A DNA stretch of 64,000 nt from Semisulcospira habei (lineage: Eukaryota; Mollusca; Gastropoda; Semisulcospiridae). Location: NCBI GenBank assembly GCA_036245525.1, contig BTPG01000001.1:178059111-178123110 (forward strand). The letters are read 5' to 3'. Of the stretch, positions 351-61,805 are shown piece after piece. Every line of letters begins with the position of its first letter. Within the stretch, counting starts at the first letter, position 1. Under the pieces are notes generated by a model, which was not told where the DNA came from, did no database searches, and saw nothing but the letters and a program-made list of their open reading frames with translations. The position numbers and the translations under genes were made by a program.

Positions 351-392
351 CACAACTGCACTACATCTGGAGGAATGGCGAGAGGGAGTGCA

Positions 393-704: not shown

Positions 705-1243
705 CTGAAAACAACACCACACCAACTCATCCCGCCATGACAAAATTCAGCAAGAGATGAATAAGCCGTGACAGTTCATGTGTCTATATATCTGTCAGGT
801 TTCATGGAGATTTTTTCACGGCCTTTATTTTGTGGTGTTGAGCATTTGCCTACAACTGGTAATAACTAATAGCATATGTTTAAATAACATTAATTAATAT
901 CTAACACTTATTTGAAATTGTTGCTTCTCTGTGTGTGTTGCATTTTAAAATACATTGTACTTACAATATGAACTTTACTTCCGTCATTAATTAATCAGTT
1001 TTATTTGGACATGCTTACAAAATAATGATTTTATTTGAAAATTTCTGAATTTCACGCAGCTCTACATCTGTCTGTACACAGAAAGTATAAGCAGGCCATG
1101 TGGTTATGACCCTGCCTCCATTCAATCTGATCCCTGCTTCATGAAATTTGATATTGCAGCAAAAAAAAGAAAGCCTTACCTTACTGTAATTATATTCAAA
1201 AGTTTCTAGTCTGACAAAAACATGCATATATCAGCCTTTGCTA

Positions 1244-3067: not shown

Positions 3068-3484
3068 TATTCAATGTATCTCTGTAAAGACCTGAAAGTG
3101 TGCAACAAATCTGCTCCATGTATTCTGCTGAGCTTTTCACACATTGTACAGAATGAAATCTGATGGTATCTGTCCTCAATTTATTTATTCACCCCTGTCT
3201 CATGCTAAAAGCATCAGTATTTCTTTCATGGGAATAGCAGACAATTTTTGTTTGACGTGATCAAAGAAAACCATAAGAAACTGGAGGGAAACACATGCTT
3301 GATTTGTTTTCTTTTATTTACAACTGCCTTGTTATGAAAATGAAACTCCCAACCTGATACAGGCTCAAATTGTTTGTATGCCTCAAATTTTCTCAAATCA
3401 GAAGAATCCGGAGAAATAAATCATGGATGCAGGTGAATCAGATGGTGCCAGAAAGGATCTCTCCAAACGGTTCAAAAACTTAGT

Positions 3485-4122
3485 CGCGCGAGTACACTGC
3501 AGACTAAACCTACCGCTGATAGTGACAGGCCTATCGTAACCATGATCTACCATCCCCACACCAATCCGGTGCGTAAAATCTTTCTTTCTAACTGGGGTCT
3601 TTTGTCATCCAGTCAAGAATCTGCTGCTATCTTTTCTGAACCTCTGTTGGTAGCTTTCAAGAGGGATATTAATTTGCGGGACATGCTTGTTCGCTCTACT
3701 CTCAAGCCTCGTCATACCACCAGAGCCTCCGGCTCCACTCCGTGCAATGTTCCTAATTGCAAGACGTGTCCTTTTATTTGCCCTTCCACCGTGGTGAATG
3801 GTCCACGTTACAAATTCAACATAGACAGATACTTCACGTGATTTATGTCATCTCCTGTGTGAAATGCGGCCAACTCTATGTTGGAGAGACGGAAAGAACC
3901 ATCAACGACCGTTTCAAAGAACATCTTCAGTCTGTCAAGTACCAATACAACAGACCGGTCGGACGACATTTCAATCAGGCCGACCACTCCATCTCAGACA
4001 TTCGAGTTAAAGGCCTCTGGCTTATGCAAGCCAGTAATGTCTGGGCCAGGAAAGACCGTGAAAAATTTCTGATTAATAAACTGGGCACTGTGGCGCCACT
4101 CGGGATGAATATGAAAGATTAA
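3485..4122 (+). pseudogene. Penelope-like RT C-terminus plus GIY-YIG endonuclease, frameshifted
   Basis: Frame one (to 3841) reads IVTMIYHPHTNPVRKIFLSN and later LRDMLVRSTL and CNVPNCKTC, the linker between RT and endonuclease in Penelope-type proteins. The frame is lost at about 3838 and the protein continues in another frame with VIYVISCVKCGQLYVGETER, the GIY-YIG catalytic region, then NDRFKEHL and WARKDREKFLINKL to a stop at 4122. A single-base lesion separates the two frames. In the family, GIY-YIG cuts the target DNA to prime reverse transcription; this copy cannot encode a full protein. Confidence 0.85.
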
Positions 4123-4439
4123 CATTGTTTACCTTGCTTGTGTCTGCTACTTTACCTCACTGATTTACTACTCACTAATCAGTTAGGTGAGGTTGGCGCT
4201 GGTTGATATGTACATTTCCCTTGGGGACTTTCTCAGCGCTGGCCGAACGTTTAGTTGGATCCCTTGCCCTTCCCTGTCGGGCACCGGGTCTCCGGCTCAC
4301 GGTTTGATACGCGGTTTTGGGGCGGGGCGATCGTGTGCATCCCTTGGGGATGTATGTGGTCGTCTTGTTGCGTGCCTGTGTGTTTTTCTGTGGGCTGGTG
4401 GGTGCCTGTTGGGTGGGGTTGGTGGCTCTGGCTGGTTGT

Positions 4440-4874
4440 CTTCCGCCCCCCCCCCCCCCCCCCCAACCATTTTTTTTTTTTTTTCCCTTCCTCCTTACTC
4501 CTTTCCCCCCCCCCCCATCTCTCTCTCTCTCTCTCTCTCCCCCCCCCCCCCCCCTTATTTTTTGAATTACCCTTGAAGACAGTTTCACAACTACCTACTC
4601 TCCACTTATACCAATATTCTCTTACTGAATTTGATTCTTTGCTTTGTTTTCATGACTTATTACTTGTTGTGTACCGTGCTAAATGCTGGGTTTTTTTTCC
4701 CGGGGTCCTCCCGTTTTTCCCCCGAGGTAGTCCTCAACTTGAAGGTGATATAAAGTTTGCCTTCGGGTTGGTGTTTAGCAGGCTTTGTGTATTAGACACT
4801 CAGCCTACTTCGTGCCCAAGGGTACTCCCCGTTCGTTCTCTCTCTCTTTCTCTCTCTCCGTCTCGCTCTCTCTT

Positions 4875-4919
<45 letters not shown>

Positions 4920-4935
4920 GGCCTCATCTACACGC
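4440..4935 (+). repeat. C, T and CT low-complexity tracts in Penelope-like 3' region
   Basis: Poly-C (about 4445-4463, 4506-4517, 4538-4553), poly-T and (CT)n blocks (4520-4538, 4843-4920). Long open frames here are only an artefact of pyrimidine-rich sequence. Confidence 0.9.
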
Positions 4936-5553
4936 CTTTGCTTTCGCTCGCTCCTGCACGTGCTTGCACACACTCTTGTCTCTCGTGTTCAGGTTCTTTC
5001 CGAGTCTCTCTCTTACGCGATTTTTCGTTGACGTCATTTTTACTTTTTCCGCACTTTTGTTCTTCCTTTTATTTTATTTTACGTCACCTCCTTCAGTTGC
5101 CACATTCCTTCTGCCATTGAAGATAAGTAGCGGCTAATCTCTATGTTTGTTTGTTTGTCTATTTTGACAAAGGGTATTTACCCGAAATATTAATAAATTG
5201 TGTTGTACCCGTCTTTTCTAAGCGTGTTTCTTTCTCCGTTGGGTACTTCTTTGCATCTTACACGCTTGGCAGTCACCTTTTTGGTCTGGATTGGTGCCAG
5301 AATAGCTCAGCGGCCCTAGGCACCCCGCCCTGAACTATTATGGTCATGTCCCCTGAACTGTGGTAATCAAAAACTCGCAAATGTGAGAATTTGGCTGTAA
5401 GTCTTAAATGCGGTTAGCAGTATGGTAACTGAATCAATGAACTGTTGATATATGAATAGGGAGAAAGGATGATTACACCATCTCCCTCGACACATGTTTA
5501 CCATCAGTCTACAAGCAAGCCACATGAGAGAAGTGTGGTGCAGTAATGCTCAC

Positions 5554-8226: not shown

Positions 8227-11200
8227 TCCTCACACTGGGACCATACGGCGTTGAGGCGTGTCCCCTGGTGGTGGATAGGGGGTCCCTCGTGAGAGGGGTG
8301 CACCGAATGAAATAAGGTGCCGTGAACCAACATGGTCTAAGGGAAGGAGACCCCGACAGAAGTAAGGGGGTTGGGCGTGGGGGTAGCTTCCCCACCCTGC
8401 AAATAAGGAAATAGCTACAGAAACGCCGACGAACAGACAAACAGCAATTCCTTTCCTGGAGGAGGAAGGTTCTTCTACCAGAAGATTTATGACGTCGTGT
8501 GGTGAAAGCCAGAAGTCTTCGGAAGCCACAGGTCCGAGCCGCCTCTCTCTATCCAGGGACACAATCATGGGCACATGAAATGTCAAGACCATGTACCAGA
8601 GCAGGAAGGCCGCCCAGATAGCAGCGGAAATGCAAAAGTATAATTTGCCCTGCTAGGTATCAGTGAAGCCAGATGGACGCAGTCTAGGCAGATGATTCTG
8701 TATTCAGGTCATGAAGAGGAGAATGCCCCTCATACAGAAGGTGTAGCATTCATGCTGTCACCAGTGGCACAGAGAGCGCTGATAGGCTGGGAACTTCTTG
8801 GGCCAAGAATTATCACAGCAGCCTTTAGAACCAGGAAAAAGATTAAGCTCAACGTCATCCAGTGTTACGCGCCCACTAATGACAGTGACGAGGAAGAGAA
8901 ACAAGAGTTCTATGACTGACTCCAGAGTGCTGTGCACAAATGTGCGGAGCGAGACATCACCATTGTCATGGGCGATTTTAATGCCAAAATAGGGGAGGAT
9001 AACACCGGATACATAGAGGTGATGGGGAGACAGGGACTAGGGGAGATGAGTGAGAACGGGGAGAGGTATGTAGACTTTTGTGCTCTAAACAGACTTGTCA
9101 TTGGAGGCAGCATCTTCCCACACAGAAGCAACTTGGGTCTCACCTGACCATACTACAGAGAACCAAATAGACCATATCTGCAAGAAATTTATAAGATCCC
9201 TTCAAGATGTTCGAGTGAGGAGGGGAGCAGATGTCGCCTCAGACCACCATCTGCTTACCTTAAGAATAAAGCTCAAGTTAAAGAAAAGCCACACAGAGAC
9301 AACAAGAAGACAGCGCTATAATGGAGGCCTCCTGAGAAAGACTGGAGTGAGAGAAGAGTTCAAACTGGTGCTGTCCAACCGGTTTCAAGCGCTACAGGAG
9401 CTAGTAAATGAAGAGGAGGCGGTCACCACAGAGCAGCAGTGGAAGGCAGTTAGAGAGGCGCTGAACTCAACCTGCAAAGACACTGTAGGGTTCAGGAAAC
9501 ACCATCACAAAGACTGGCTGTCGGCACAGACCTTGAAGAAGATAGAAGTGAGGAAGCAGAAGAAAGCAGTTGTCAACAACAGTCGCACGAGAGCAGCCAA
9601 AGCAAGGGGACAGGAGGAATACTCGGAAGCCAACTGCAAGGTGAAGAGGCGTATCAGGGCAGACAAGAGGGCCTACACAGACAGCCTGGCAGCAGAGGCA
9701 GAAAAGGCAGCAGGCTGTGGCAACATGAAACAGCTCTACGACATTACCAGAAGATTGTCGGGCAAGTATGGCCATACACAAAGACCGGTAAAAGACAAAG
9801 AAGGCAAGCCTATTGCAGACACAGCAGACCAACTCGACAGATGGGCCGAGTATTTCAAAGAAAGACTGAACAGACCCACCCCACCCAACCCCTCAGACAT
9901 CCAGCCAGCAGAGACTGACCTACCCATCAGCTGTGACAGACCCAGCCAGGAAGAGATCAGAAGAGCAGTGGCATTTTTGAAGAACGGCAAAGCAGCAGGG
10001 CCAGATGGCATCCCAGCGGACGCTCTGAAAGCAGATCTAGAGACAACAGTAGAGCTGCTGTACCCACTGTTTGGAAAGATATGGAAAGAGGAGGTGATGC
10101 CGGTTGACTGGAAGGAGGGGTACCTAATCAAGCTTCCCAAGAAAGGCGACCTCAACAAGTGTTCCAACTACAGAGGAATCACCTTGCTGTCAGTACCAGG
10201 AAATGTCTTCAACAGGATCATCCTGGAGAGAATGAAGAGCTCCATCGACCCCCAGCTGAGGCCAGCAAGCAGGAGTCAGGAAAAACCGATCAAGTACAGA
10301 CCAGATCGTCACTCTCCACATCATCGTGGAACTGTCTGGAGTGGAGCTCCCCGCTGTACATCAACTTTGTGGATTATGAGAAAGCATTTGACAGCGTGGA
10401 CCGAGAGACTTTGTGGAAACTCCTACACTACGGTGTACCCACAAAGCTCGTCTGCCTGATCAAGAGCAGCTACAATGGCATGACATGTCGCATGATCCAC
10501 GAAGGGCAGTTCACCAGGGAGCTCCAGGTCAGAACCGGCGTCACGCAGGGGTGTTTGCTGTCTCCATTCCTCTTCTTACCGACCATAGACTGGGTCATGA
10601 AGAGGACCACTGAGCAGAGAAGAAGCGGAATACAGTGGACACTGTGGACACAGCTTAACGACCTCGATTTTGCAGACGACTTGGCTTTACTGTCCCACAC
10701 TCATCAACAAATGCAGGACAAGACCACGAGGCTTGCTGACATCTCGTCCCAAGTGGGCCTCACCATCCACAAACAGAAAACAAAGGCAATGAGGCTGAAC
10801 GCAACCAGGGAAGAACCAGTCTTGCTTGCTGGCACCCCGTTGGAGGAGGTGGAGTCATTCACCTATCTCGGGAGCATCATCAACAAAAAAGGCGGCACTT
10901 ATGCAGATGTCAGAGCACAAATCGGTAAAGCAAGAGCAGCCTTTCTCCAGTTGAAAAAAGTGTGGAGTTCCAGAGAGCTGTCACAACACACCAAAGTCTG
11001 GATTTTAGATCAGCAACGTCAGACTCTGGGAGAGAACAGAGCAAATAACAGCAGAGAATGAAATTGGGTGAAGAAGATGGGGATGGATTGGTCACAGTCT
11101 CAGAAAGCCAGTTTCCAGTATCACTAGGCAGGCATTGTCATGGAACCCCCAGGGAAAAAGGAAAAGAGGCAGGCCAAGAAACACCTGGCGTAGAGACCTC

Positions 11201-11332
11201 CAAGAAGACATCAAGAGACTGGGAACCACCTGAAGTAAAATCGAAGGAGAAGCACAGGACAGGAGTTGCTGGAGGTTTCTCGTCGATGGACTATACCCTG
11301 GGAGGGGTGACAGGCATAAGTAAGTAAGTAAG
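8227..11332 (+). mobile_element. RTE-like LINE, copy B1, full-length but decayed, inside a SINE
   Basis: Flanked by the 12-bp target-site duplication TTTTTCCCAATT (8215-8226 and 11333-11344), which lies within the SINE. The 5' end starts near CACACTGGGACCATACGG, as in copy B2 at 20249. The 3' end has a tetranucleotide tail (TAAG)n, as in copies B2 and B3. Length about 3.1 kb. Relative to B2 it carries many stops, an 11-bp deletion near 9127 and a deletion of roughly 140 bp near 11007. Confidence 0.9.
8578..11300 (+). pseudogene. RTE-like endonuclease-reverse transcriptase remnant (B1)
   Basis: The APE endonuclease part (about 8690-9270) includes VMGDFNAKIGEDNTGY, the DHTTENQIDHIC segment and SDHHLL. 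The RT part (about 9960-10900) includes LKNGKAAGPDGIP, LPKKGDLNKCSNYRGITLL, the FVDYEKAFDSVDRE aspartate region and DFADDLALL, the F-A-D-D catalytic box. Stops interrupt the endonuclease (for example at 8919 and 9147) and a frameshift at about 10260 separates fingers from palm. The protein is close to copies B2 and B3. Clade placement (RTE) is from general resemblance and tail type. Confidence 0.88.
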
Positions 11333-26302: not shown

Positions 26303-26960
26303 ATTATAGTATGATAGATATTCATCCCCCGGGGGTCCCCGCCCGCCACCGAGCCCAACACGGGAAAGTGCAATTGTCGGCGGGTCTCCAGCCGACGCAC
26401 AATGGAGACTGCCCGAAAGATATACTCAAGGGGGTAAGCCCGATTGAACCGTTTGAGCCACCGCCTTCTATCACACTGTTGAATGCAGGGGAATACTGGC
26501 GTAGAGCACCTAATCAGCATCAGAGGCTATAGCATGGTGCTCCGTATAACAACCCGCATGTCAACAGGGGGATAGGGCTCGACGTGACAAGAGCCGATTG
26601 ACTAGGCCGGTACGACTAGCCTCCCGTTTAGGCAGAAGTCAAGGCCAAAGTGGAGTGTTTCAGCCACCAGGATCCTCTTCTCCCCCGACACGGGTCTCCA
26701 AGCACGGCAAACACTTGGGATCCAAAGGACCAAAAGCTCATGAGTATTTTTAAGGACCAATCCAACATGGTAAGACCTGGGTTAGCACAGCTCCTTAAAA
26801 ACTGGACCAGTGAAAAAGACTGAACAACATATCTGCTGATATCAAGTCCTAATCCTGGACAAAGATGGCACCCGTCTGCTAGCCCACTCAGTCAGGGACT
26901 GAGGGGACTACCCACCCACGCCACGTGGAGGCCGGTGCCGGGTAGGCGAATGTCATCCAG

Positions 26961-29294
26961 TGTTATGCGCCCACTAATGACAGTGACGAGGAAGAGAAAC
27001 AAGAGTTCTACGACCGACTCCAGAGAGCCGTGGACAAATGTGCGGAGCAAGACACCACCATCGTCATGGGCGATTTTAATGCCAAAATAGGGGAGGACAA
27101 CACCGGATACGAAGAGGTGATGGGGAGACAGGGACTAGGGGAGATGAGCGAGAACGGGGAGAGGTTTGTAGACTTTTGTGCTCTAAACAGTCTTGTCATT
27201 GGAGGCAGCATCTTCCCACACAGAAGAATACACAAAGCAACGTGGGTCTCACCTGACCATACTACAGAGAACCAAATAGACCATATCTGCATTAGCAAGA
27301 AATTTAGAAGATCCCTTCAAGATGTTCGAGTGAGGAGGGGAGCAGATATCGCCTCAGACCACCATCTGCTCACCTTAAGAATAAAGCTCAAGTTAAAGAA
27401 AAGCCACACAGAGACAACAAGAAGACAGCGCTATAATGTAGGCCTCCTGAGAGAGACTGGAGTGAGAGAAGAGTTCAAACTGGTGCTGTCCAACCGGTTT
27501 CAAGCGCTACAGGAGCTAGTAAATGAAGAGGAGGCGGTCACCACAGAGCAGCAGTGGAAGGCAGTTAGAGAGGCGCTGAACTCAACCTGCAAAGACACTG
27601 AAGGGTTCAGGAAACACCATCGCAAGGACTGGCTGTCGGCACAGACCTTGAAGAAGATAGAAGTGAGGAAGCAGAAGAAAGTAGTTGTCAACAACAGTCA
27701 CACGAGAGCAGCCAAAGCAAGGGCACAGGAGGAATACTCGGAAGCCAACCGCGAGGTGAAGAGGAGTATCAGGGCAGACAAGAGGGCCTACACAGACAGC
27801 CTGGCAGCAGAGGCAGAAAAGGCAGCAGGCAGCGGCAACACGAAACAGCTCTACGACATTACCAGAAGATTGTCGGGCAAGTATGGCCATACAGAAAGAA
27901 CAGTAAAAGACAAAGAAGGCAAGCCTATTGCAGACAGAGCAGACCAACTCGACAGATGGGCCGAGTATTTTGAAGAGTTACTGAACAGACCCAGCCCACC
28001 CGACCCCCCAGACATCCAGCCAGCAGAGACCGACCTACCCATCAGCTGTGACAGACCCAGCCGGGAAGAGATCAGAAGAGCAGTGGCATTTTTGAAGAAC
28101 GGCAAAGCAGCAGGGCCAGATGGCATCCCAGCGGAGTCTCTGAAAGCAGACCTAGAGACCACAGTAGAGATGCTGTACCCACTGTTTGGAAAGATCTGGG
28201 AAGAGGAGGTGATGCCGGCTGACTGGAAGGAGGGGTACCTAATCAAGCTTCCCAAGAAAGGTGACCTCAGCAAGTGTTCCAACTACAGAGGAATCACCTT
28301 GCTGTCAGTACCAGGAAAGGTCTTCAACAGGATCATCCTGGAGAGAATAAAGAGCTCCGTTGACCCCCAGCTGAGAGACCAGCAAGCAGGATTCAGGAAA
28401 CACCGATCATGTACAGACCAGATCGCCACTCTTCGCATCATCGTGGAACAGTCTCTGGAGTGGAGCTCCCCGCTGTACGTCAACTTTGTGGATTACGAGA
28501 AAGCATTTGACAGCGTGGACCGAGAGACTCTGTGGAAACTCATACAACGCTACGGTGTACCCACAAAGCTCATCCGCCTGATCAAGAGCAGCTACGATGG
28601 CATGACATGTCGCGTGATCCACGAAGGGCAGTTCACCAGGGAGCTCCAGGTCAGAACCGGTGTCAGGCAGGGGTGTCTGCTGTCTCCGTTCCTCTTCCTA
28701 CTGGCCATAGACTGGGTCGTGAAGAGGACCACAGAGCAGAGAGGAAGCGGAATACAGTGGACACTGTGGACACAGCTTGACGACCTCGATTTTGCGGATG
28801 ACTTGGCATTACTGTCCCACACTCATCAACAAATGCAGGACAAGACCACGAGGCTTGCTGACATTTCGTCCCAAGTGGGCCTCACCATCCACAAACAGAA
28901 AACAAAGACAATGAGGCTGAACGCAACCAGGGAAGAACCAGTCTTGCTTGCTGGCACCCCATTGGAGGAGGTGGAGTCCTTCACCTATCTCGGGAGCATC
29001 ATAGACAAAAAAGGCGGCACTGATGCAGATGTCAGAGCACAAATCGGTAAAGCCAGAGCAGCCTTTCTCCAGTTGAAAAAAGTGTGGAGTTCCAGAGAGC
29101 TGTCACAAAACACCAAAGTCCGGATTTTCAACTCCAACATAAAAGCAGTTCTCCTATATGGAGCAGAGACTTGGAGATTGACAAAAACCACTGTCAACAG
29201 AGTACAGATCTTCATAAACAGTTGCCTTAGAAGAATTTTGAAAATCCACTGGCCAGAGAAGATCAGCAACATCAGACTCTGGGAGAGCAGATAA
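26961..29294 (+). pseudogene. RTE-like endonuclease-reverse transcriptase, large intact piece (B2)
   Basis: Continuous frame of over 750 codons. Endonuclease: VMGDFNAKIGEDNTGYEEVM, ATWVSPDHTTENQIDHICIS and ASDHHLLTL. Spacer rich in Lys/Arg. RT: AVAFLKNGKAAGPDGIPAES, SKCSNYRGITLL, QAGFRKHRSCTDQI, FVDYEKAFDSVDR, VRQGCLLSPFLF and LDFADDLALLS (catalytic F-A-D-D), then SFTYLGSIIDKKGG, LLYGAETWRLTK and CLRRIL. A 7-bp deletion relative to copy B3 at about 29287 introduces an early stop at 29294; the remaining C-terminus ([15 protein letters not shown]) follows out of frame. No RNase H domain, as expected for this LINE group. Confidence 0.92.
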
Positions 29295-29654
29295 CAGCAG
29301 AGAATGAAATTGGGCGAAGAAGATGGGGATGGATTGGTCACAGTCTGAGAAAGCCAGCTTCCAGTATCACTAGGCAGGCATTGTCATGGAATCCCCAGGG
29401 AAAAAGGAAAAGAGGTAGGCCGAGAAACTCCTGGCGTCGAGACCTCCAAGCAGACATCAAGAGAATGGGAACCACCTGGAGTAAAAATCGAAGGAGAAGC
29501 ACAGGACAGGAGTCGCTGGAGGTCTCTCGTCGACGGCCTATACCCGGGTAGGGGTGACAGGCGTAAGTAAGTAAGTAAGTATTCACCCAAAGCTGAAAAT
29601 TTGAGTGCAAATGAATAAAGCAGCTGTTTGGTGGAAATGTAATACACCATTATG

Positions 29655-41236: not shown

Positions 41237-41635
41237 GGGGCGGTCCATGGCGCAGTGGTTAAGGCGCCTGCCACCAATCTTAAAGGTGCGAGGTTCGATA
41301 CTGGGTTCCGGCGTCAGACTTTTCTCCTCTAGTAAGTGTCACCCTTAATTCGGGCGGACCGTCAGGGGTTCTTTTTCCGGATACTCCAGCTCTTCCTCCC
41401 CCTCCCCCGTGGTACCCATTTCAGGCCACTTCATAAATTTCAAATACAAGTGATCAAAATTTCCGAAACCTCAGTAGCTGAGCTGAACCTTCGCACCATG
41501 TGAATGTCCTGTGTTTGTCTTGTACTGTGTTTGTCTTCAGAGTGAATGCGTGTGTGTCACATGAGCGTGCGTGTTGGGTTCAGTTCACGGCCCTTTGAGC
41601 CGAATTGCAGAATTGAGTAAAGTGCCTATATAATA
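41237..41635 (+). mobile_element. tRNA-derived SINE, copy 2 (body), split by LINE B3
   Basis: Starts GGGGCGGTCCATGGCGCAGT with A-box-like TGGCGCAGTGG and B-box-like GGTTCGATACT. Its tail GCCTATATAATA (41624-41635) is duplicated at 44504-44515 on the far side of LINE B3, and the (ATT)n tail continues at 44516-44549. Confidence 0.9.
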
Positions 41636-44503
41636 CTTACTTACTTACGCCTGTCACCCCTACCCGGGTATAGGCCGTCGACGAGAGACCTCCAGCAACT
41701 CCTGTCCTGTGCTTCTCCTTCGATTCTACTCCAGGTGGTTCCCAGTCTCTTGATGTCTGCTTGGAGGTCTCGACGCCAGGAGTTTCTCGGCCTACCTCTT
41801 TTCCTCTTTCCCTGGGGGTTCCATGACAATGCCTGCCTAGTGATACTGGAAGCTGGCTTTCTCAGACTGTGACCGATCCATCCCCATCTTCTTCGCCCAA
41901 TTTCATTCTCTGCTGTTATCTGCTCTGTTCTCTCCCAGAGTCTGACGTTGCTGATCTTCTCTGGCCATTCTTTTTTTAAAATTCTTCTAAGGCAACTGTT
42001 CATGAAGGTCTGTACTCTGTTGACTGTGGTTTTTGTCAATCTCCATGTCTCTGCTCCATATAGGAGAACTGCTTTTACATTGGAGTTGAAAATCCGGACT
42101 TTGGTGTGTTGTGACAGCTCTCTGGAACTCCACACTTTTTTCAACTGGAGAAAGGCTGCTCTGGCTTTACCGATTCGTGCTCTGACATCTGCATCAGTGC
42201 CGCCTTTTTTGTCTATGATGCTCCCGAGATAGGTGAAGTACTCCACCTCCTCCAACGGGGTGCCAGCAAGCAAGACTGGTTCTTCCCTGGTTGCGTTCAG
42301 CCTCATTGTCTTTGTTTTCTGTTTGTGAATGGTGAGGCCCACTTGGGACGAGATGTCAGCAAGCCTCGTGGTCTTGTCCTGCATTTGTTGATGAGTGTGG
42401 GACAGTAATGCCAAGTCGTCTGCAAAATCGAGGTCGTCAAGCTGTGTCCACAGTGTCCACTGTATTCCACTTCGTCTGTGCTCTGTGGTCATCTTCATGA
42501 CCCAGTCTATGGCCAGTAGGAAGAGGAACGGAGACAGCAGACACCCCTGCCTGACACCAGTTCTGACCTGGAGCTCTCTGGTGAACTGCCCTTCGTGGAT
42601 CACGCGACATGTCATGCCATCATAGCTGCTCTTGATCAGGCGGACGAGCTTTGTGGGTACACCGTAGTGTCGTAGGAGTCTCCACAGAGTCTCTCGGTCC
42701 ACACTGTCAATCATAATCCACAAAGTTGACGTACAGCTGGGAGCTCCACTCCAGAGACTGTTCCACGATGATGCGGAGAGTGGCAATCTGGTCTGTACAT
42801 GATCGGTTCTTCCTGAATCCTGCTTGCTGGTCTCTCAGCTGGGGGTCAACGGAGCTCTGCATTCTCTCTAGGATGATCCTGTTGAAGACCTTTCCTGGTA
42901 TTGACAGCAAGGTGATTCCTCTGTAGTTGGAACACTTGCTGAGGTCGCCTTTCTTGGGAAGCTTGATTAGGTACCCCTCCTTCCAGTCAGCTGGCATCAC
43001 CTCCTCTTCCCAGATCTTTCCAAACAGTGGGTACAGCATCTCAACTGTTGTCTCTAGGTCTGCTTTCAGAGACTCCGCTGGGATGCCATCTGGCCCTGCT
43101 GCTTTGCCATTCTTCAAAAATGCCACTGCTTTTCTGATCTCTTCCCGGCTGGGTCTGTCACAGCTGATGGGTAGGTCGGTCTCTGCCGGCTGGATGTCGG
43201 GGGGGTCGGGTGGGCTAGGTCTGTTCAGTAACTCTTCAAAATACTCGGCCCATCTGTCGAGTTGGTCTGCTCTGTCTGCAATAGGCTTGCCTTCTTTGTC
43301 TTTTACTGGTCTTTCTGTATGGCCATACTTACCCGACAATCTTCTGGTAATGTCGTAGAGCTGTTTCATGTTGCCGCTGCCTGCTGCCTTTTCTGCCTCT
43401 GCTGCCAGGCTGTCTGTGTAGGCCCTCTTGTCTGCCCTGATACTCCTCTTCACCTCGCGGTTGGCTTCCGAGTATTCCCCCTGTGCCCTTACTTTGGCTG
43501 CTCTCGTGCGACTGTTGTTGACCGCTGCTTTCTTCTGCTTCCTCGCTTCTATCTTCTTCAAGGTCTGTGCCGACAGCCAGTACTTGTGGTGGTGTTTCCT
43601 GAACCCTACAGTGTCTTTGCAGGTTGAGTTCAGCGCCTCTCTAACTGCCTTCCACTGCTGCTCTGTGGTGACTGCCTCCTCTTCATTTACTAGCTCCTGT
43701 AGCGCTTGAAACCGGTTGGACAGCACCAGTTTGAACTCTTCTCTAACTCCAGTTTCTCTCAGGAGGCCTACATTATAGCGCTGTCTTCTTGTTGTCTCTG
43801 TGCGGCTTTTCTTTAGCTTGAGCTTCATTCTTAAGGTAAGCAGATGGTGGTCTGAGGCGACATCTGCTCCCCTCCTCACTTGAACATCTTGAAGGGATCT
43901 TCTAAATTTCTTGCTAATGCAGATATGGTCTATTTGGTTCTCTGTTGTATGGTCAGGTGAGACCCAAGTTGCTTTGTGTATTCTTCTGTGTGGGAAGATG
44001 CTGCCTCCAATGACAAGTCGGTTTAGAGCACAAAAGTCTACAAACCTCTCCCCGTTCTCACTCATCTCCGAGCCTAGTCCCTGTCTCCCCATCACCTCTT
44101 CGTATCCGGTGTTGTCATCCCCTATTTTGGCATTAAAATCGCCCATGACGATGGTGATGTCTCGCTCCGCACATTTGTCCACGGCACTCTGGAGTTGGTC
44201 GTAGAACTCTTGTTTCTCTTCCTCGTCACTGTCATTGGTGGGCGCATAACACTGGATGACGTTCAGCTTGAGCTTTTTCTTGGTTCTAAAGGCTGCTGTT
44301 ATAATTCTTGGCCCAAGAGGTTCCCAGCCCATCAGCGCTCTCTGTGCCACTGCTGACAGCATGAGTGCTACTCCTTCTGTATGGGGGGCATTCTCCTCTT
44401 CATGACCTGAATACAGAATCATCTCCCCACTTAACAGCCTTTTCTAGCCAGACTGCGTCCATCTGGCTTCACTGATGCCTAGCAGGGAAAGGTTGTACTT
44501 TTG
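41636..44503 (-). mobile_element. RTE-like LINE, copy B3, 5'-truncated, inside a SINE
   Basis: Flanked by the 12-bp duplication GCCTATATAATA (41624-41635 and 44504-44515) inside the SINE 3' region. The 3' end has the (TAAG)n tail (here CTTACTTACTTAC). The 5' end stops at AAAAGTACAACC, so it lacks roughly the first 430 bp present in B2. Confidence 0.93.
41641..44470 (-). pseudogene. RTE-like endonuclease-reverse transcriptase (B3), nearly intact
   Basis: The endonuclease part starts in EARWTQSG, with an in-frame TAG replacing the next Gln codon (about 44447), then MILYSGHEEENAPHTEG and DFNAKIGDDNTGYEEVM. RT follows: FLKNGKAAGPDGIPAES, SNYRGITLLSIPGK, QQAGFRKNRSCTDQ and LDFADDLALLS. An 11-bp deletion in the DYEKAFDSVD motif (near 42710) shifts the frame and removes part of the first catalytic aspartate region. 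The C-terminus, [33 protein letters not shown] and GLYPGRGDR, is preserved and shows what copies B1 and B2 have lost. Confidence 0.92.
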
Positions 44504-50165: not shown

Positions 50166-50278
50166 CAACTCTTCTGCGTACGGCAGCCAGCCTTCAAGTA
50201 CATGCGGTCAGGTTTTTATGACTTCTAATATGTACATTACAGGCAGGAAAATTTGCCCCTTCTCGTACTATTTCTGTA

Positions 50279-50775
50279 TAATAATAATAATAATGTACAT
50301 TTATATAGCGCTTAACCTCCAAATGAATGGTGCTCTAAGCGCTTTTACAAGATCAACAATCACAGAACAAAAAGTACAAGAAAGAAAATGCTACAATAAA
50401 TGTTACAAAAACTAAAGTGACACATCAAAAGCTCACACTCACACATACACACACACCATTACAAGATCAGTTACTGCCAAAGATTGCTAACGCACTGAAA
50501 ATGCATCTAACTATCTACATAAGAAAACAGATAGGTCTTGAGCAGTGATTTAAAAGCAGACAGAGTTGGGGCATGTTTGACATGGGCTAGAAGGTCGTTC
50601 CAGGTGACTGGACCGAAATAAGAAAAGGCATGCTGGCCCTGGCTGGACTTCTTTCGCCTAGGAACCCTGAAAATACGCGTGTCTGATGCTGAACGAAGGG
50701 GTCTTGAAGGCGTTTAAATATGAACCAGATCGGACAAATATGGGGGAGCAGAACCGGTAATAGAATTGTAACAAA
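50279..50775 (-). mobile_element. L2-like LINE 3' end, inverted copy
   Basis: On the minus strand it encodes a degenerate HICPIWFIFKRLQD...VFSGFLGERS segment and ends with GTAAAAGCGCTTAGAGCACC, ATTCATTTGGAGGTTAAGCG and (ATT)n. The same sequence occurs in the opposite orientation at 61240-61740. Confidence 0.82.
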
Positions 50776-50872
50776 TAACGATACAATACAATACAATACA
50801 ATACAATAATACTTTATTAATCCCTCATGGGGAAATTCACTGTCTGCCCATACAGCACATGGCATCATCATT
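50776..50872 (-). repeat. LINE/SINE-type tail with (ATACA)n
   Basis: On the minus strand GTGAATTTCCCCATGAGGGA, TTAATAAAGTATT and (GTATT)n. A similar CCCCTTGGGGAA/AATAAA tail is at 61764-61805. Confidence 0.55.
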
Positions 50873-52933: not shown

Positions 52934-53561
52934 TTTGAAGTTTCAGTATTAGCCATTTGAAATTTCAGTAATACTATTAAAATTTCAGTAATACTATTAC
53001 TATTGTTACCTATTATTTCTGCACTTTTTTTATATTGTGCCTTTTATATTAGCACGAGCGCAAAAATAAAAATGACACACACACACATCACTGACCAGGA
53101 CACATATAGTTTGCACATCTCTGTAATGGGTTAAATAATGGTTGGGTGCCCCCCCCCCACCCCCCTCTCCTCCACTTAATTTTTTAAAATTAGGTCCAAC
53201 CAAGGAAAAGCAGACACCAACAGGTTGGTTTAAATAAAGGGACGTAATCAAGCAAATTGTTCTAGTGTGCTTACTCCCCTTGTTATTGTTTTAATTTGAC
53301 TAACTCCAACATTTACTTTATTTCTAGATTTTAAAAGGCAACTACTATTAATGATAAATTAGGAAATCATATAAATTATTATTTTATGTACCCAATTTAA
53401 ACAAAAATAATGCATTTTTTGTCAGATTAGAATATCTTTTATTGTACAACTTCACCCACAGCTTTAAACTAAAATAAAACTTGGATTATGTTAACAACGA
53501 TATATATGATGCAGGGAAAAATTCATATTATTTGGAAAAAAGAATACGGCATATACAGCCT

Positions 53562-53604
53562 ATCGCTTCTCGGCCTTTTGGCTAAGATCAAAGTGTTCTT
53601 ATCC
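53562..53604 (+). ncRNA. U2 snRNA 5'-end fragment at the head of the LINE (not a gene)
   Basis: 53562-53591 is identical to nucleotides 1-30 of animal U2 snRNA (starts ATCGCTTCTCGG, ends GCTAAGATCAA). After an extra A and GTG, the bases TTCTTATC (53596-53603) could align with U2 nucleotides about 43-50, which would skip the branch-site-pairing GTAGTA region. The fragment starts exactly at U2 nucleotide 1, immediately after the target-site duplication. There is no snRNA promoter, Sm site or 3' box, so it is not a U2 gene. Confidence 0.9.
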
Positions 53605-53848
53605 TTGAGAAGTGAGGGCGTGTCGTCGTGCGACTTGTCGCTTAGAGGCCTCAGGTAGTGAGGAAACTTGGTTACGACGACCACGCTTGGCTAGGCGACT
53701 ACAGCTGCTTTTTCTTGGTGCTCCTCACGACTCTTCGGCAGGCTCCGCGTTTTTACGCTTGGCTTGCATCCCTGTCCACCCGCTCTCCCACTTTCATAGT
53801 GGGTCTTTTGCCCTTACTGGCTCCCTCCCCCACGCACCTGAGCGCAGA

Positions 53849-55156
53849 ATGCCGAGACCGCTTTACTCCCAGATGGCCGGCGGAGGACCCCCACCCCCCT
53901 CCACTTTGTCTTCGTCGAAACCCGGAGGTTTCGTGCCCGCCTCCACCGTTGGTGCCGTGAAACTGTCCTTAGCCGCCTGTGACAGGAAGGACGACCTGAA
54001 GAAGGTGACCGTTCAACTCCACCTCTCCGGCCGCAGCGCACCCCTCACCCGTCGGGAAGCCATTATCGCAGCCATCGTCGCAACGGGCATCCCCAAAGAC
54101 AGCGTCGTGTCCATGTGGAAGGGGGAGGACCACAGGCTTATACACATTTCTTTTAGCGACCCCTGTCACGTGGCCACCTGCCTAGAGGCTAGCCCCCTCA
54201 GTCTGCCGTCCGGTGTGACGGCTCACGTCGAGCACGCAGACAGCGCCGTGGTGGAGGTTCGCGTCCACTGGGTGCCATCATATATCGGCAATAGCTTGTT
54301 CGTCCGCCTCTTCGAATCCATGGGCAAGGTACGGGAGGCGAGAGAGGAGGCGGACGGCCAGGGCCTGGACATGGGTATACGCTACTTTCGGGTCGAGATG
54401 AAACGTGCGCGAATGGCAGACATCCCCACCCTCCTCAACGTCGAGATGGACGATGAAACGCTCAACTTCCTCGTCACGGTCAAGGGCAGGGTCTCCACTT
54501 GCCTTGTCTGCGACCAACTCGGGCACACTCGACGAGAATGCCCTGCCATCCCACGACGCAACAACGGCGGCAGCAACAACGGCGGCAACAACAACGGCGG
54601 CGGCAACACAGGCAACAGTGACGGCAGCAGTAGTGGCCCTAGAGGCAGTGATACTGTTCGCAACGGTGGTAGGTCCGGCAGTGGCCCTCGTAACACTCTC
54701 CAGAGCAGTGGTAGAAGTGATAGCGATGTTACTTCCTCTCTTACGTCACTCGGAAAAGTACGTAGTGCAACGGCCCACACCAGTGTCGCCAGTCAGCAGC
54801 CGGAGCGGCCCACCCAAGAGTCTGACAGGGTAGAGGAGGAAGACAAAGTGACCCAGGTGATTCCCCCTACCCCTGCCACAGAACACGGCGAAAGCAGCCA
54901 AGACAATACCCTTCCGTGCGGACAGTCCAAGTACCAGTCGTCCGGGGCTAGTGTGGTGGAGGCTCGTCACGGACTACTCACACAGCTTGCTGCCACACAG
55001 CCCCGACGCGACACGGCCCGAGTGGTGACCAAGCGCCAGGCAAACGACAGTGACGAGGAACTGTCTAAATGCACCAAGGGGGACAACACTGAAATCCTCG
55101 ACATGTGGGACTCTGATACGGAGCCCCACCCACCGCAGGAGACGATGGTCCAGTAA
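53849..55156 (+). CDS. Tx1-like LINE ORF1, Gag-like with CCHC knuckle
   Basis: The frame is open from 53612, but the Met at 53849 (MPRPLYSQMAGGGPPPPSTL) is the likelier start because the upstream part is the 5' UTR. It contains an RRM-like domain (KKVTVQLHLSGRSAPLTRRE to FLVTVKGRVSTC), one zinc knuckle CLVCDQLGHTRREC (C-x2-C-x4-H-x4-C), an Asn/Gly-rich run, and an acidic Ser-rich tail. Uninterrupted, about 436 codons from that Met. Role in the family: RNA binding in the LINE ribonucleoprotein. Confidence 0.9.
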   Translation: MPRPLYSQMAGGGPPPPSTLSSSKPGGFVPASTVGAVKLSLAACDRKDDLKKVTVQLHLSGRSAPLTRREAIIAAIVATGIPKDSVVSMWKGEDHRLIHISFSDPCHVATCLEASPLSLPSGVTAHVEHADSAVVEVRVHWVPSYIGNSLFVRLFESMGKVREAREEADGQGLDMGIRYFRVEMKRARMADIPTLLNVEMDDETLNFLVTVKGRVSTCLVCDQLGHTRRECPAIPRRNNGGSNNGGNNNGGGNTGNSDGSSSGPRGSDTVRNGGRSGSGPRNTLQSSGRSDSDVTSSLTSLGKVRSATAHTSVASQQPERPTQESDRVEEEDKVTQVIPPTPATEHGESSQDNTLPCGQSKYQSSGASVVEARHGLLTQLAATQPRRDTARVVTKRQANDSDEELSKCTKGDNTEILDMWDSDTEPHPPQETMVQ

Positions 55157-55425
55157 GTACGGCACATCATCGTGGCGCGTATGTCTCTCCTGACTTTGTA
55201 CAATGCCATCATTATACCATATTTCAGTGCTACTGTGCAGGCCCGTGACTTTGAGACTGGTGGCCCAGGGCCAAAAGACTCAAGATTGCGGGCCCCCACA
55301 CACAAGCCGCCTCTGCCTGTTTTGATCCGTACTATGACAACTTTTTGGATTTTTGTACATCTTAATATAAGATGGTCACTGCTGTATGGTTAGGATTTTT
55401 TGCCGTTTTCTTTACTGTACTCGCC

Positions 55426-58400
55426 ATGCCAAAAATAGCGTCCATCAATTGTAACGGCTTGCGAGATGCCCATCGTATAGGACTACTCCAAACGTACATC
55501 AAACAAAACAATATCAGTATTTGTCTTCTACAAGAAACTCATGTCGATAGTTTGAAACGCGGGAAGGAAATAGAACATTTCCTGGACGGTAAAATTTTCT
55601 GGTCCCTCAGCCATACTAGAGGCAAAGGAGTCGGTATTTTTCTTAGTAATAATTTAATTATGATTTGCAATTTTTTCACTTTGATTTTCTTGGACGATAT
55701 GTATATGTAGATATTTTTATTGACAGTTTCCCGGTTAGAATCATGAACGTTTATACCCCTAATAACCCTCTGGAACGCAAAGAATTTTTTGTTGATTTGT
55801 ACCCCTCACTTGTCACCCCTAAACCGCTCATATTTGGTGGAGATTTTAATTGCATTTCCGACTCATCTTTAGATAAAATAGGGGGCAACCCAGAGAGAGG
55901 GACAGACGGTTGGGCGGAATTATCTACCCTTCTCAGGGACCACGAGTTGTTAGACGCTTATCGGATTAAGCATCCCCATACTTGCACTGTCACATGGCGC
56001 AGTTCTAGTGTCGGCTGTCGCCTTGACAGGATTTACCTATCAGCCTCTATTGCTGGGCATCTGACCCACTGCACCCATGATATTTGTTCCTTTTCTGATC
56101 ACGATTTTGTCCTTGTCCACTTGTCGTCACTGTCCCACACGCAAGTTGGAAAAGGTTACTGGAAGTTCAATAATTCCCTTTTGGAAGATATTGACTACGT
56201 TAATAAAATTCAGCAGGTATTGCACTTTGCATCTGGCGCCGTTCCCGACAGCCCAGAGATCCTGCACTGGTGGGACGATTTGAAGCAGGAATTACGGCAG
56301 ATCACCTTTAACCATAGCAAAATAAAAAGTATGACGCTCCAAGCGGAAATAAAAGCCCTAAGTGCACAATATCATATTCTGGAAAGTAAAAAGAAGCTGA
56401 AAGAAATGAAAAATGTGAAAGATAGGATCCGCGAAATTGAAATTAACAAACTCACGGGTTCTCAGGTTCGCTCACGAGCGAAACTAATAGAAAACCAAGA
56501 AAGACCTACGAAATTTTTCTACAGGAAAGAATTGAAACAAGGTAAAAAGAAATTAATTAGCCAGATAGAAACGGAAAATGGCAACATTCTGTCTGAAACA
56601 CAACAGATCAAGGAAGCCTTTCAAAATTTTTACTCTAACCTTTACTCAGCCGAAAATACTGATCCTGTGGCTCAAGACACATTGTTTGAAGGTCTCCCTA
56701 AAGTAACAGGGCTAGAGGCCGACATGATAGGCGATGAGATAACCCAACAAGAAATAGAAAATGCCATTAAAGACATGGAAAACAATAAGTCTCCCGGTCC
56801 AGACGGGTTTTCTAAAGAATTTTATGCAAAGTTTCTCAAGGACCTCAGCCCGATCCTATCAAAAGTCTACGAAGCTGTGCATAAGGTAGGGTACCTCCCC
56901 ACATCACTAAAAACATCCTACATTACTCTGCTTTGTAAAGATGAAAATAATCCACACTTGATGAAAAATTATAGACCCATCTCGCTACTCAATGTAGATT
57001 ACAAGATTTTAACCAAAGTACTTTGTTCACGACTGAAACCTCTCCTTTCCCAGATAATTCACCCTGATCAGACCTCCAGCGTGCCCGGGAGGTCCATTAT
57101 TGATAGCTGTCACTTGGTCCGCGACATAGTTGATCACTGTAATACTAGAGGTATATCCAATATATTATTGTCTGTGGATCAAGAAAAAGCCTTTGACCGT
57201 GTGAGTCACGAATACCTAGTCAGAGTCTTGAAAGCCTTTGGCTTCAGTGAACATTTTATTCGCTGGGTGTCAGCCCTATACACTGACATCAGCAGTTGTG
57301 TCATTGTTAACCAGTGTATCTCCGAGCCCTTTCTTGTTGCTCGATCGGTGAGACAAGGATGCAGCCTCTCGCCTCTTTTGTACGTATTATGCCTCGAACC
57401 TGTTTTGTTGAAAATTAGAAAAGACGCATCCATTGTCGGTGTACAGATACCAGGCAGATCAGACCTTTGTAAAGTCGCCGCCTTTGCGGACGACTGTAAT
57501 TTTTCACTTGCCAATGAATCATCAGTGACACGTGTTTTGTCAGTTTTTAATCTGTATGGAAAGGCCTCGGGTGCCAAACTGAACCGGGGAAAGACCAGGG
57601 GAATGCGTATCGGGAGATGGCGGAGGAGACGAGACGCTTCCCTGGGTATTTCCTGGGTGGAAAGCCTGACCATTTTTGGCATCCCCTTTGGAGATGTCTC
57701 ACTGGACGCAGCCTGGCAACCTGTACTAAATAAAATTTGCAAGCTGTTGAACATGTTTCGTGGCCGCTATCTTTCTGTTTACGGGCGAGCCAAACTTGTA
57801 AATACTTTTATTTTATCAAAACTGTGGTACATGGCCTCGGTATTGCCTCCACCGAGCCATTTTATCAAGCGGGTGGAAAGAGAGATTTTTAGGTTTCTGT
57901 GGTCCAGTATAAATGAACCTATCAAACGGGCCACGATGTACTTACCGCCTGAGGAGGGCGGGGCCGGAGTCATCAGCATCCGCACCAAAATTGACAGTTT
58001 GTTGCTGATGCAGGTGGTGAAGGTTCTGAGGGGGTCAGTTGACAAGTGGACAGCTTTTGGTCACATGTGGCTAGGGCTTCAGCTCAAGAAGATTCCCGGG
58101 TACCAGTTTAGTAACTGCAGGCCGCACAGCCGGGACGACCCCCCTATCTTTTACAAAGCGTGTTGCAAAGCTCTGGCCGCTTTTCTGTCCGTGGCTCCGG
58201 ACTTCAGCGCGAACTCTGGAGCCACGTGCAGGGGAGTGTACAGAGCGATGCTGAACACTGTCACGTCACCCCCTCGCGTCATTGATATTTTCCCCCATAT
58301 AGACTTTAAACAAGCTTTTAAGGGGGCTTCACATAGCTTTTTAGACCCGATCACCATGACTGTATCTTTCAAACTAGCCCATGACATTGTACCTGTGGCC

Positions 58401-58856
58401 CACACACTGTACCTTCGAAACATAACGGGCCACAAAATGTGTTCTTTTTGCCACAAAGATGTTGAAACAGTTGAGCATTTGTTTATTTGTTGTGACCACA
58501 TCAAGCCCTCACGCGGCTACCTGGCCAAGTGGCTGAGGGCAATCACTGACACCTGCCTCACAGCCGACTGCATACGATTCACTGTCTTCGCTCAGTTCCT
58601 ACCCCCCAACGCCCGCAAGGCCGCGACAGCCCTGCTAGCGGAGTACAGACACGCAGTATGGACTTGTCGCAACAAAGCTCGCTTTGACAAAAAGCGTGTT
58701 ACTGTAACAGAGGTAACGGCATTCTTTCTGGCCCGAGTCCGCATTCGGCTGTGGGTGGACAAATCAAGATTGCCCCCAGACACATTCCAGGCAATTTGGT
58801 GCCACTCCAGTTTGTGCTCCGTCAACGATGACGGAAGTTTCTCGGTGAACTTCTGA
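55426..58856 (+). pseudogene. Tx1-like LINE ORF2 (endonuclease-RT), one frameshift
   Basis: The likely start is MPKIASINCNGLRDAHRIGL at 55426. APE motifs: LLQETHVDS, GKGVGIFLSN, RIMNVYTPNN and FGGDFNCISDS, then FSDHDFVLVHL. RT motifs: NNKSPGPDGFSKEFYAKF, NYRPISLLNVDYKILTKVL, SVDQEKAFDRVSHEYL, VRQGCSLSPLLYVLCLE and VAAFADDCNF (catalytic F-A-D-D near 57488). The C-terminal CSFCHKDVETVEHLFICC (C-x2-C-x7-H-x4-C) is the usual L1/Tx1 zinc motif. The only lesion found is a one-base shift in the T6 run near 55670; everything downstream is open for over 1060 codons. Confidence 0.93.
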
Positions 58857-58921
58857 CATGTAGTTAAGAAAAGTGTTAGGTGCGCATGTGCGCACCTCGG
58901 TGTGTGTTAGTGGCGTGAAAG

Positions 58922-58922
<1 letters not shown>

Positions 58923-58954
<32 letters not shown>
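58923..58954 (+). repeat. poly-G tract, 32 nt, in the LINE 3' UTR
   Basis: Uninterrupted G32, 67 bp after the ORF2 stop. Confidence 0.95.
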
Positions 58955-58955
<1 letters not shown>

Positions 58956-59804
58956 ATGGACAGAGGCAAGCGTGCGCCGTGCAGCAAGTAAGCGCGCCTC
59001 GCCTCCAGTCTGGAACCAAGGTTATGGTAAAAAACCTTTCGCCACAGCACCAAGTGGCGTTTATTGTGCTTTAATATGCTCATAATTTTACCATGTAAAT
59101 AAGTTTGTGTTTATAGTTGTGACATGTAAACAAGTTGTTTTACCATGTTTTATGTAGTTGTATATTTACCTCACACTACGCTGTGCCAACCTCTCTACGA
59201 GCACGAGAGAAAACGCATTATGTACATCCAAACTCATGTCCATCATATGTAATCTTAAACTTGTAATTCACGGATGTATTTCGCCATAACACTAGTCATT
59301 TCAACCACTCAGTATTTTAACAAACGCAACCTTTGGACGGCAGCATCGTACGATTTTTATTCTAAATGTAAAGCACCTCTTCTCGATGGATATCAACGTT
59401 TACTCTTAATCACCCAGTATCAGGTCCACAACTGTACATACGGCGAAATCTATACAATTGTTATTTTTATGTTTTGTTATGGTCAATAAACCAATTGAAA
59501 AAGAAAAAAAGAAAAAAATATATACAGCCTGTCGGAAACCTGTCACGGCCAACGAGTTTGTTTGGTGCATTCCAACCAGCTTCACAATGATTGGTTCAAA
59601 GCCTGGAAGCTGTGATCAGTAACTTAGTTGGGTGACCTTGACTCGGCCGGCAGCCTACACTGTAGCCACAGGCGCTCAACGAACCTTTTTTTTTATTATT
59701 TTGCTTTTCCGTAGTATTTTTACTGCTTCCGTAGCTCCGTAGTAACACATCTACTTCCGTAGTAAACTACGGAAATTCCGTAGTGGTTGGCAACTCTGCA
59801 AGGT

Positions 59805-61525
59805 GACCCAGCCTCCAGTCTTCAGGATCACAAAGAACTTGAAGGGGATCGACCGGGACCCGATGTCGCCACTTTTGTCTCTGGCCACCCACACGCCTCA
59901 GCAGATAAGCTGAACGCTGGACTGAGGACCCTGTCACCACTCCACACCCTGGTTCCCATCTGTGGCGTCTGAACTGCATGCCTTAAAGCAGGAGAGACGT
60001 CAGGCTGAGCGACTTTGGCTTAAGTCAGGACTGACAGTGCATAAACAAATTTTCAGTCAGTTGAAGAACAAAGTCACGCGTCTGACAGACCATGCAAAAA
60101 CTGTGTTTTATTGTTCTAAGGTTGCTGCTGCTGGTACATGCAAAGAATTGTTTTGCATTGCCAGCAGCCTTATGGGAAAGTCAGGTCTGTTGTTCTTCTG
60201 AGCATCCATCCACCCCAAGTTCTTCCAAAGCTTTTCTCAGATTACTTTAGTGACAAAAGCATCCTGAACAATATTGATAAATGTGCCGATGCTGGCATGA
60301 AAAACTGTCCATCTGTAGAGACCTCTTTTTCAGGTCTGCCTCCGACATGTTTTGACCTGTAACGGAGAAATTTGTGCATGAAATCATGAGTAAGATGTCG
60401 CCTAAAACATGTGACCTTGACCTTGTCCCCTCTTCTCTTCTACTTGTATGTTGCGGTGAGATTGTGCCAGCTGTCACAGAAATTGTAAACCAGTCTCTTA
60501 ATTAAGAAACAGGTGTTGTCCCAGCATGTTTCAAAACTGCCATTGTAAAACCTCTCTTAAGGAAGCCCACTCTTGACCCAAATGATCTAAAAAATTACAG
60601 ACCTGGCCGATCCTTTTCACATTGTATACCCAGCCTTTATCTAGTGTTATCAAATGTCACTCTGTTTCTCACTATTTTTATGCTGATGACACAGAGCTGT
60701 ATGCCAGTGCCCACCACAAACATGTTAGTCAGATGTTCCAGTCTTTAGAGTCCTGTGTCACAGATGTTCAGAATTGGACCACACAGAACAAAATAATTGC
60801 AAATGAATAGTGACAAAACTGAGGCCTTAAGATTTTCTTGTTCAACCTCCGCTGATCTCCCAGACTCGATCAGGTTGGTCAGAACAGTATCCCCTTTTCT
60901 GAGTCGGCCCGTAATCTTGGTGTTATCTTTGACAATAGGCCGACTATGTGAGAGCATGTCAACAAGGTTTGCCAATGTTCCTTCTTTGAATTGAGAAGAT
61001 CAGTTCAATTCAACACCTTCTCACTACTGAAGCAACTAAAACGCTTGTTACCTCCCTTGTTCTTTCATGCATTGATTTTTGTAATTCCCTTTTGGCTGGT
61101 GTTCCTCAGAATCTTCTTGATAAACTTCAAAGAGTTATGAACTGCTCTGCCTGACTAATTTACAGGGTACCGAAACGTGAGCACATAACATGCTTACTTG
61201 TTGACCTGCACTGGCTGCCTGTATCTCAAAAGAATTGTGTACAAGGTTTCTGTTATTTGTTACAATGCCATTACCGGTTCTGCTCCCCCATATTTGTCTG
61301 ACCTGGTTCATATTTACACGCCTTCAAGATCCCGTTCAGCATCAGACATGCGTATTTTCAGGATTCCTAGGTGAAAGAAGTCTAGCCAGGGCCTTTTCTT
61401 ATTTCGGTCCAGTCACCTGGAATGATCTTCCAGCCCATGTCAGACATGCTCCAACTCTGTCTGCTTTCCAAATCACTGCTCAAAAACTATCTGGTTTTTT
61501 ATGCATATAGTTTGATGCATTTTCA
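59805..61525 (+). pseudogene. L2-like LINE ORF2, RT and C-terminal remnant
   Basis: 59810-59940 repeats the PVFRITKNLKGIDRD and VATFVSGHPHASADKLNAGL segment already present at 52130-52260, a partial internal duplication. It is followed by ELHALKQERRQAERLWLKSG, LTDHAKTVFYCSKVAAAGTC, CKELF, PLLRKPTLDPNDLKNYRP, then a deletion to SVSHYFYADDTELYASA (the Y-A-D-D box) and the C-terminal SPYLSDL/YTPSRSRSASD and FSYFGPVTWNDLPAHVRHAP. Multiple frameshifts. Confidence 0.82.
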
Positions 61526-61805
61526 GTGCGTTAGCAATCTTTGGCAGCAACTGTTCTTGTAACAGTGTGTGTGTATGAGCGAGCTTTTGATTATGTGTCA
61601 CTTTAGTTTTTGTAACATTTATTGTAGCGTTTTCTTTCATGTATTTTTTTGTTCTGTGATTTTTGATCTTGTAAAGCGCTTAGAGCACCATTCATTTGGA
61701 GGTTAAGCACTATACAAATGTACATTATTATAAGCGCTATACAAATGTACATTATTATTATTACCCTTGGGGAATGGAAAAATAAATGTTTGTTGTATTT
61801 ACTAT

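Follow-up and report, generated by a model that had tools for sequence, protein, structure and literature searches.

The target-specific LINEs R1 and R2 are transcribed together with the gene that they interrupt, by read-through from rRNA promoters, and the RNA of R2 is freed from the upstream rRNA by ribozyme cleavage. Small nuclear RNA joined to a LINE is found in L1-U6 chimeras, which are attributed to template switching and whose junctions are scattered, not set by the insertion site. SINEU of crocodilians (Kojima 2015) is said to carry an snRNA-derived head and to have undergone repeated head addition, and its partner LINE, Tx1-Mar, reportedly prefers a Mariner element. Among the LINEs of U2 genes, Keno was reportedly described by Kojima and Fujiwara in 2004. 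It appears in the accessible parts of two papers (PMC4640811, PMC3706591) as a LINE with an AP endonuclease that sits in U2 genes and has U2 sequence for its 3' flank; PMC4640811 reports it from frogs, fish, lancelet and hydra. Utopia, in the accessible part of PMC4640811, also targets U2 genes, with a restriction-like endonuclease; some families insert outside U2 too, the 5' junctions are variable and the 3' junctions precise, and the 3' flanks are stated to be identical to those of Keno. Crocodilian Utopia copies outside U2 have short U2-like junction sequences, which were read there as weakened target preference, and the word 'promoter' has no occurrence in the main text of that paper in its accessible form.

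The window, a 64,000-nucleotide stretch of the Semisulcospira habei genome, contains a 5.96-kb LINE (53551..59530, below called the window copy), which by sequence inspection is bounded by 11-bp duplications and begins at U2 nt 1. Both properties had been claimed in an earlier note on this DNA and were confirmed: the duplication ATATACAGCCT is present at 53551-53561 and 59520-59530, its length exceeding the 95% shuffle level of 7, and the insert opens at 53562 with ATCGCTTCTCGGCC..., which is nt 1 of the host U2 (reference L034; L with a number is a locus label in the host genome, and C1-C8 are contigs). The U2 match of 30 nt given by the same note is real, but its length had to be corrected to 35 nt without mismatch plus U2 45-51. 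The element has the following parts:

53551..53561, plus strand: left target-site duplication ATATACAGCCT, repeated at 59520..59530
53562..53596, plus strand: head of U2 snRNA nt 1-35, 35/35 identity with genomic U2 copies
53597..53603, plus strand: U2 nt 45-51 (TCTTATC), joined without U2 36-44 (head type A), as compared with the type C heads of L016 and L022
53604..53848, plus strand: LINE 5' UTR proper, first bases CTTGAG, the common start behind head types A-D
53849..55156, plus strand: ORF1, 435 aa, first ATG placed by eye, with CCHC zinc-knuckle CLVCDQLGHTRREC
55426..58856, plus strand: ORF2 with AP-type endonuclease, reverse transcriptase and C-terminal zf-RVT (PF03372, PF00078, PF13966)
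59498..59519, plus strand: A-rich 3' tail, preceded by AATAAACCAATTG
59520..59530, plus strand: right target-site duplication ATATACAGCCT

ORF1 had no match in the Pfam search. ORF2 carries a frame shift near 55653-55710, inside the endonuclease, and PF03372 was found on the two endonuclease halves with E values of 6.8e-5 and 3.4e-5, each slightly below the Pfam curated cut-off. The closest PDB entry to ORF2 was human L1 ORF2p (E 2e-79), the match covering endonuclease and reverse transcriptase. At the gathering threshold, Rfam missed the shortened U2 head of the window copy but flagged U2 in L016 and L022, whose heads are unbroken; a run on ten loci returned U2 only, in L022 and L069. The window also contains three related copies of another LINE (9180-11330, 26948-29577 and 41634-44463; one inverted, pieces about 90-99% alike, ORFs reverse transcriptase-like by eye), a perfect 283-bp tandem duplication (1316-1881) and inverted repeat arms (50275-50779 and 61252-61743, pieces 89-94% alike) that flank the LINE described here.

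With a probability of about 0.87, we propose that this LINE inhabits U2 genes, that its RNA would be started at U2 +1, that escaped copies would thereby keep a U2 head, and that a SINE may have followed the same route. Compared with Keno, the present LINE is likewise U2-inserted and has an AP-type endonuclease and U2 as 3' flank; U2-headed copies outside U2 and a U2-headed SINE partner, in contrast, are unreported in the accessible accounts of Keno. With Utopia, so far as its account is accessible, it has in common the U2 target and escapes outside U2, but it differs in its heads running from U2 nt 1 and in its AP-type endonuclease; with this in place of a restriction-like one, membership of Utopia was rejected. 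The 3' flank begins at nt 36 here and at nt 39 in the accessible account of Phytophthora Utopia, in numberings that may differ between the species. The present SINE resembles SINEU, as that element is reportedly defined, in its U2 1-51 head and in repeated head addition (a body colinear with U2 1-64, and doubled heads in L026, L037 and L038), whereas it differs in itself occupying U2 genes, next to a LINE that targets them, and this suggests an origin for such heads. Like R1 and R2, the present LINE would be transcribed together with its target gene, but, unlike in R2, the upstream host part is retained and taken to new sites. An snRNA-LINE fusion is common to the L1-U6 chimeras and the present copies; the heads described here, however, end at U2 35-51, and their type D is common with U2-resident copies.

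The host genome comprises 1.98 Gb in 507 contigs, C1-C8 being of 178-344 Mb. It was searched with the first 389 bases of the element (55 matches from 40 scored among 42 candidates; copies were read at their junctions), for the LINE 3' end (40 scored among 52 candidates), for the U2 family (46 scored among 51,014 first-look candidates) and for the SINE, with a resident copy as query (48 matches; 40 scored among 75 candidates). Copy numbers throughout are lower bounds from the matches listed, and fractions of interrupted U2 loci are not to be taken as genome-wide rates, because the loci were chosen via U2 and LINE matches among those listed.

In the fetched loci, a pattern search found 33 U2 downstream halves, and in 24 of them poly(A) stands directly before nt 36 (L062 and L063, fetched likewise, did not match the pattern and are outside the 33). 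By eye, 13 of these junctions were preceded by LINE tails and 11 by SINE or SINE-like tails. Six of the 33 halves had U2 intact up to nt 35, five of them from nt 1 and L046 from nt 5, and three were of other kinds (L030, L058, L065). Looked at from the LINE, 16 of the 40 scored 3' ends (52 candidates) ran into U2 or a U2 head, and the other 24 lay elsewhere, seven of the latter belonging to the nine head-bearing off-target LINEs described below. Inside U2 genes, 5'-truncated LINEs followed U2 1-51 (L025), 1-49 (L027) or 1 to about 37-39 (L035), and U2 stopped at nt 48 in doubled-head (L037, L038) and tandem (L028, L038) SINEs, so that the duplicated stretch is mostly U2 36 to about 48-51. This target duplication, of about 13-16 bp, falls within the lengths found for duplications elsewhere. 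For the interrupted U2 loci, the upstream 240 bp were common with intact U2 genes in all 11 cases tested and fell into two classes, one with L031 and L034, the other with L041 and L044. None of eight head-bearing comparison copies shared this upstream sequence; these were seven of the 22 off-target copies (the window copy, L009, L016, L020, L023, L032 and L036) and L029, a decayed U2 locus. The insert-free U2 loci L030, L043 and L046 had upstream sequences unlike any other locus compared. Judged by these junctions, the U2 snRNA gene is the home of the LINE family.

Further features were seen at U2 loci. At L014-L015 (C8:8371403-8386534), three U2 3' halves preceded by LINE sequence, the first by the LINE 3' part only, are spaced by about 7.36 kb; this is a tandem array with the inserted LINE as part of the unit. 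In the U2 copy L030 (C4:71743435-71743624), a shorter sequence stands in place of AGTATCTG, precisely where the LINE inserts; this may be a repair scar following cleavage.

Nine LINE copies were found with a U2 head and a 3' flank other than U2. Their heads start at U2 nt 1 (window copy, L009, L020, L023), 4 (L010, L016), 5 (L011), 7 (L022) or 18 (L012), that is, in eight of nine cases within nt 1-7. Type A is represented by the window copy, L009, L011 and L012, type B by L010, type D by L020, and type C, unbroken to U2 51, by L016 and L022 and, with changes, by L023, in which the shared start of the LINE 5' UTR also has small changes. Duplications of 9-14 bp flank four of the nine, the window copy included, and a recognisable duplication was absent in the other five. 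Three more head-bearing LINEs lie behind U2 upstream sequence: L017 with type A, L018 and L019 with type D. A start at the CTTGAG of the LINE itself was not found in any of the copies seen. The U2 part of the LINE heads stops within nt 35-51, where the LINE inserts and duplicates its target. L021, a nested insertion, starts directly behind the tail of another LINE, at nt 35/36 of its head.

The earlier note had offered two explanations, and that of a source LINE residing in a U2 gene and then copied to a non-U2 site is supported by L020: this copy lies at a non-U2 site within a 10-bp duplication, has the type D junction of the U2-resident L018 and L019, and is 99.8% and 99.5% identical to them, respectively (element positions 171-5340). 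The proposed check was for U2-gene copies that share the breakpoint, and within the family such copies exist. For the junction of the window copy itself the answer is partial. Type A does occur behind U2 upstream sequence, in L017, but the identity of that copy with the window copy is no more than 93.8%, and it is judged to be resident from its upstream flank, a search for its 3' end having found none. In the subfamily of the window copy, off-target and U2-resident members are mixed at 98.9-100% identity (positions 171-5340); of the residents seen, those closest to it (98.9% or more) all lack the 5' end, and its direct source was therefore not found. Open ORF2 frames of 1161-1163 aa are present in residents (L014, L015, L018) as well as in escaped copies (L010, L011, L013).

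Off-target inserts recur at identical points of other repeats. Five LINEs are inserted before CAGCTGTCCACACCGG (3' flanks of L010, L011, L082, L087 and L092) and three inserts before ACCGGTCGTAGGCGG (L009, L068, L083), and insertion points are also common to L012 and L020 and to L022 and L071; judging from the flanks, these recurrent points are secondary hot spots. A 113-bp unit of the 5' UTR is present in two copies in L016, L018, L019, L020 and L022 and in about five tandem copies in L017 (C4:6133893-6134794). An earlier U2 head was not found within the LINE 5' UTR (score 32, shuffle maximum 49). Pairing of U2 nt 2-12 with the LINE start (fold z -0.68) was dropped as not unusual, being equalled in 37 of 500 shuffles.

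The companion SINE, of about 155 bp plus an A-tail, has a head of U2 1-51 and was found in U2 genes and elsewhere. Thirteen off-target copies were counted (L032, L036, L039, L040, L042, L045, L067-L071, L073, L074), with L029, L072 and L075 excluded as lying in U2-derived or ambiguous places. Twelve of the 13 begin within U2 nt 1-14 (for L039 the outer head, at nt 7), and L070 begins at nt 36. Duplications of 9 bp or more flank six of the 12 that could be scored (L074 is without 3' end), and in the other six a recognisable duplication was absent. A single extra G stands ahead of U2 nt 1 in one copy, L032, and could be a copied cap. The SINE and LINE 3' ends share AATTG plus an A-run only, 17 columns, and both elements have the same U2 target site; from this common target and short tail we infer that the SINE may be mobilised by the U2-targeting LINE.

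The U2-resident SINE L037 consists of U2 1-48 followed by U2 1-51 and the SINE, and doubled heads are also present in L038 and L026; an incoming RNA that begins at U2 nt 1 would be expected to produce them. In the off-target SINE L040, U2 to about nt 44-47 is joined to a 5'-truncated SINE body, which is expected if the source was a truncated resident. The 5' half of the SINE body is itself colinear with U2 1-64. In 1000 dinucleotide shuffles each, none reached the scores of L074 (63), L072 (53), L073 (50), L075 (47) and L029 (48), and the modern body of L033 matched weakly (score 36; 10/1000 shuffles). With simple shuffles, L029 exceeded the maximum (45 against 40), and L033 (33 against 39) and L036 (39 against 43) stayed below it. 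The SINE body thus looks like an older U2 head, and with the doubled head this gives L037 three layers: resident U2, recent head and old head. Such layers may be read as repeated cycles via U2 genes, with the transcript start added each time. At L039 (C1:39283012-39283500), a SINE that has GATAAAAGC duplications on both sides and a doubled, partial U2 head lies directly behind a LINE 3' end.

That the U2 match arose by chance, or through an assembly or gene-conversion artefact, is extremely improbable. U2 loci are repetitive and the resident L014 contains a run of N, but the match is exact over 35 nt, and outside U2 genes, U2 heads occur at nine LINE and 13 SINE loci spread over several chromosomes, ten of these loci having duplications of their own; chance was rejected with the recurrence of the head on nine off-target LINEs and three behind U2 promoters. 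The other explanation of the earlier note, a jump of the reverse transcriptase from LINE RNA to U2 snRNA anew at each insertion, has a precedent in L1 with U6, and the doubled partial head of L039 can be read in this way. It predicts scattered junctions, however, whereas the LINE heads end at U2 nt 35-51, the LINE's own site, and the odd junction of the off-target L020 is common to the residents L018 and L019. Since junctions shared at the LINE's own insertion site are not predicted by such jumps, this explanation was not borne out and was rejected as very unlikely.

A third reading is that U2 1-51 entered the element in a single capture and has since been inherited as a fixed 5' UTR with internal promoter activity, copies everywhere acting as sources. 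Identical head types do occur at unrelated loci, and the presence of type D in two residents behind different promoter classes (L018, L019) indicates that the inner head is inherited. As the head is common within the family and not special to the window copy, it is in part an inherited 5' UTR. As the full explanation, we consider a fixed 5' UTR unlikely, though less so than template switching. U2 genes are transcribed by Pol II from external promoters; U2 insertion is ongoing at high identity, with 16 of 40 scored LINE 3' ends followed by U2 or a U2 head; junction types differ among the heads, and fresh SINE heads are stacked on older ones; and the structure of L040 fits a truncated resident source.

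Taking these observations together, we favour residence in U2 genes with transcription from their start site, which may proceed as follows. As the junctions show, the LINE machinery joins poly(A) to U2 nt 36 and duplicates U2 36 to about 48-51, so that a resident copy is preceded by the upstream sequence of its U2 gene and by U2 from nt 1 to about nt 51. The U2 promoter would then transcribe a chimeric RNA from U2 +1 through the LINE to the A-tail. Reverse transcription of this RNA through to its 5' end would, at a non-U2 site, give a new copy with a head and without the U2 promoter, and the window copy would be one such escape. If the RNA returns to a U2 gene, the head could merge with the resident U2 5' end, as in the LINEs L017-L019, or be stacked behind the resident U2, as in the SINEs L026, L037 and L038. 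The short SINE would follow the same route, its body being a putative trace of an earlier head addition. U2-resident copies would then be the main sources, and escaped copies mostly transcriptional dead ends; we infer this order of events and the sterility of escaped copies from DNA sequence. A stricter form, to which we give even odds, is that LINE and SINE partner have no promoter of their own, that every round passes via a U2 gene, and that dispersed headed copies are sterile records of escape. The snRNA-type Pol II promoter of the U2 gene would in that case yield a chimeric U2-LINE messenger, and each passage would add or renew a U2 head, so that SINE lineages would grow by stacking the 5' ends of host genes.

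LINEs that target U2 and SINEs with snRNA heads have each been known on their own. What is new is the presence of both together, with resident and escaped copies; the literature search was limited, and absence from print is not claimed. To our knowledge, earlier descriptions of snRNA-headed SINEs do not include source loci of this kind next to them, and U2-type promoters normally make no polyadenylated protein-coding RNA, which makes the expression of the LINE a testable puzzle. It is well supported by the sequences that the U2-gene LINE and the U2-headed SINE carry the start site of their source promoter as a tag. The tag is sequence evidence on the transcription of a LINE whose target is a small-RNA gene, which would be via the start site of the target gene itself, and it offers a mechanism behind the repeated snRNA heads of SINEs. 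For the host, the insertions point to a family of essential genes being heavily burdened, with 24 of 33 U2 downstream halves, among the fetched loci only, cut off by an insert.
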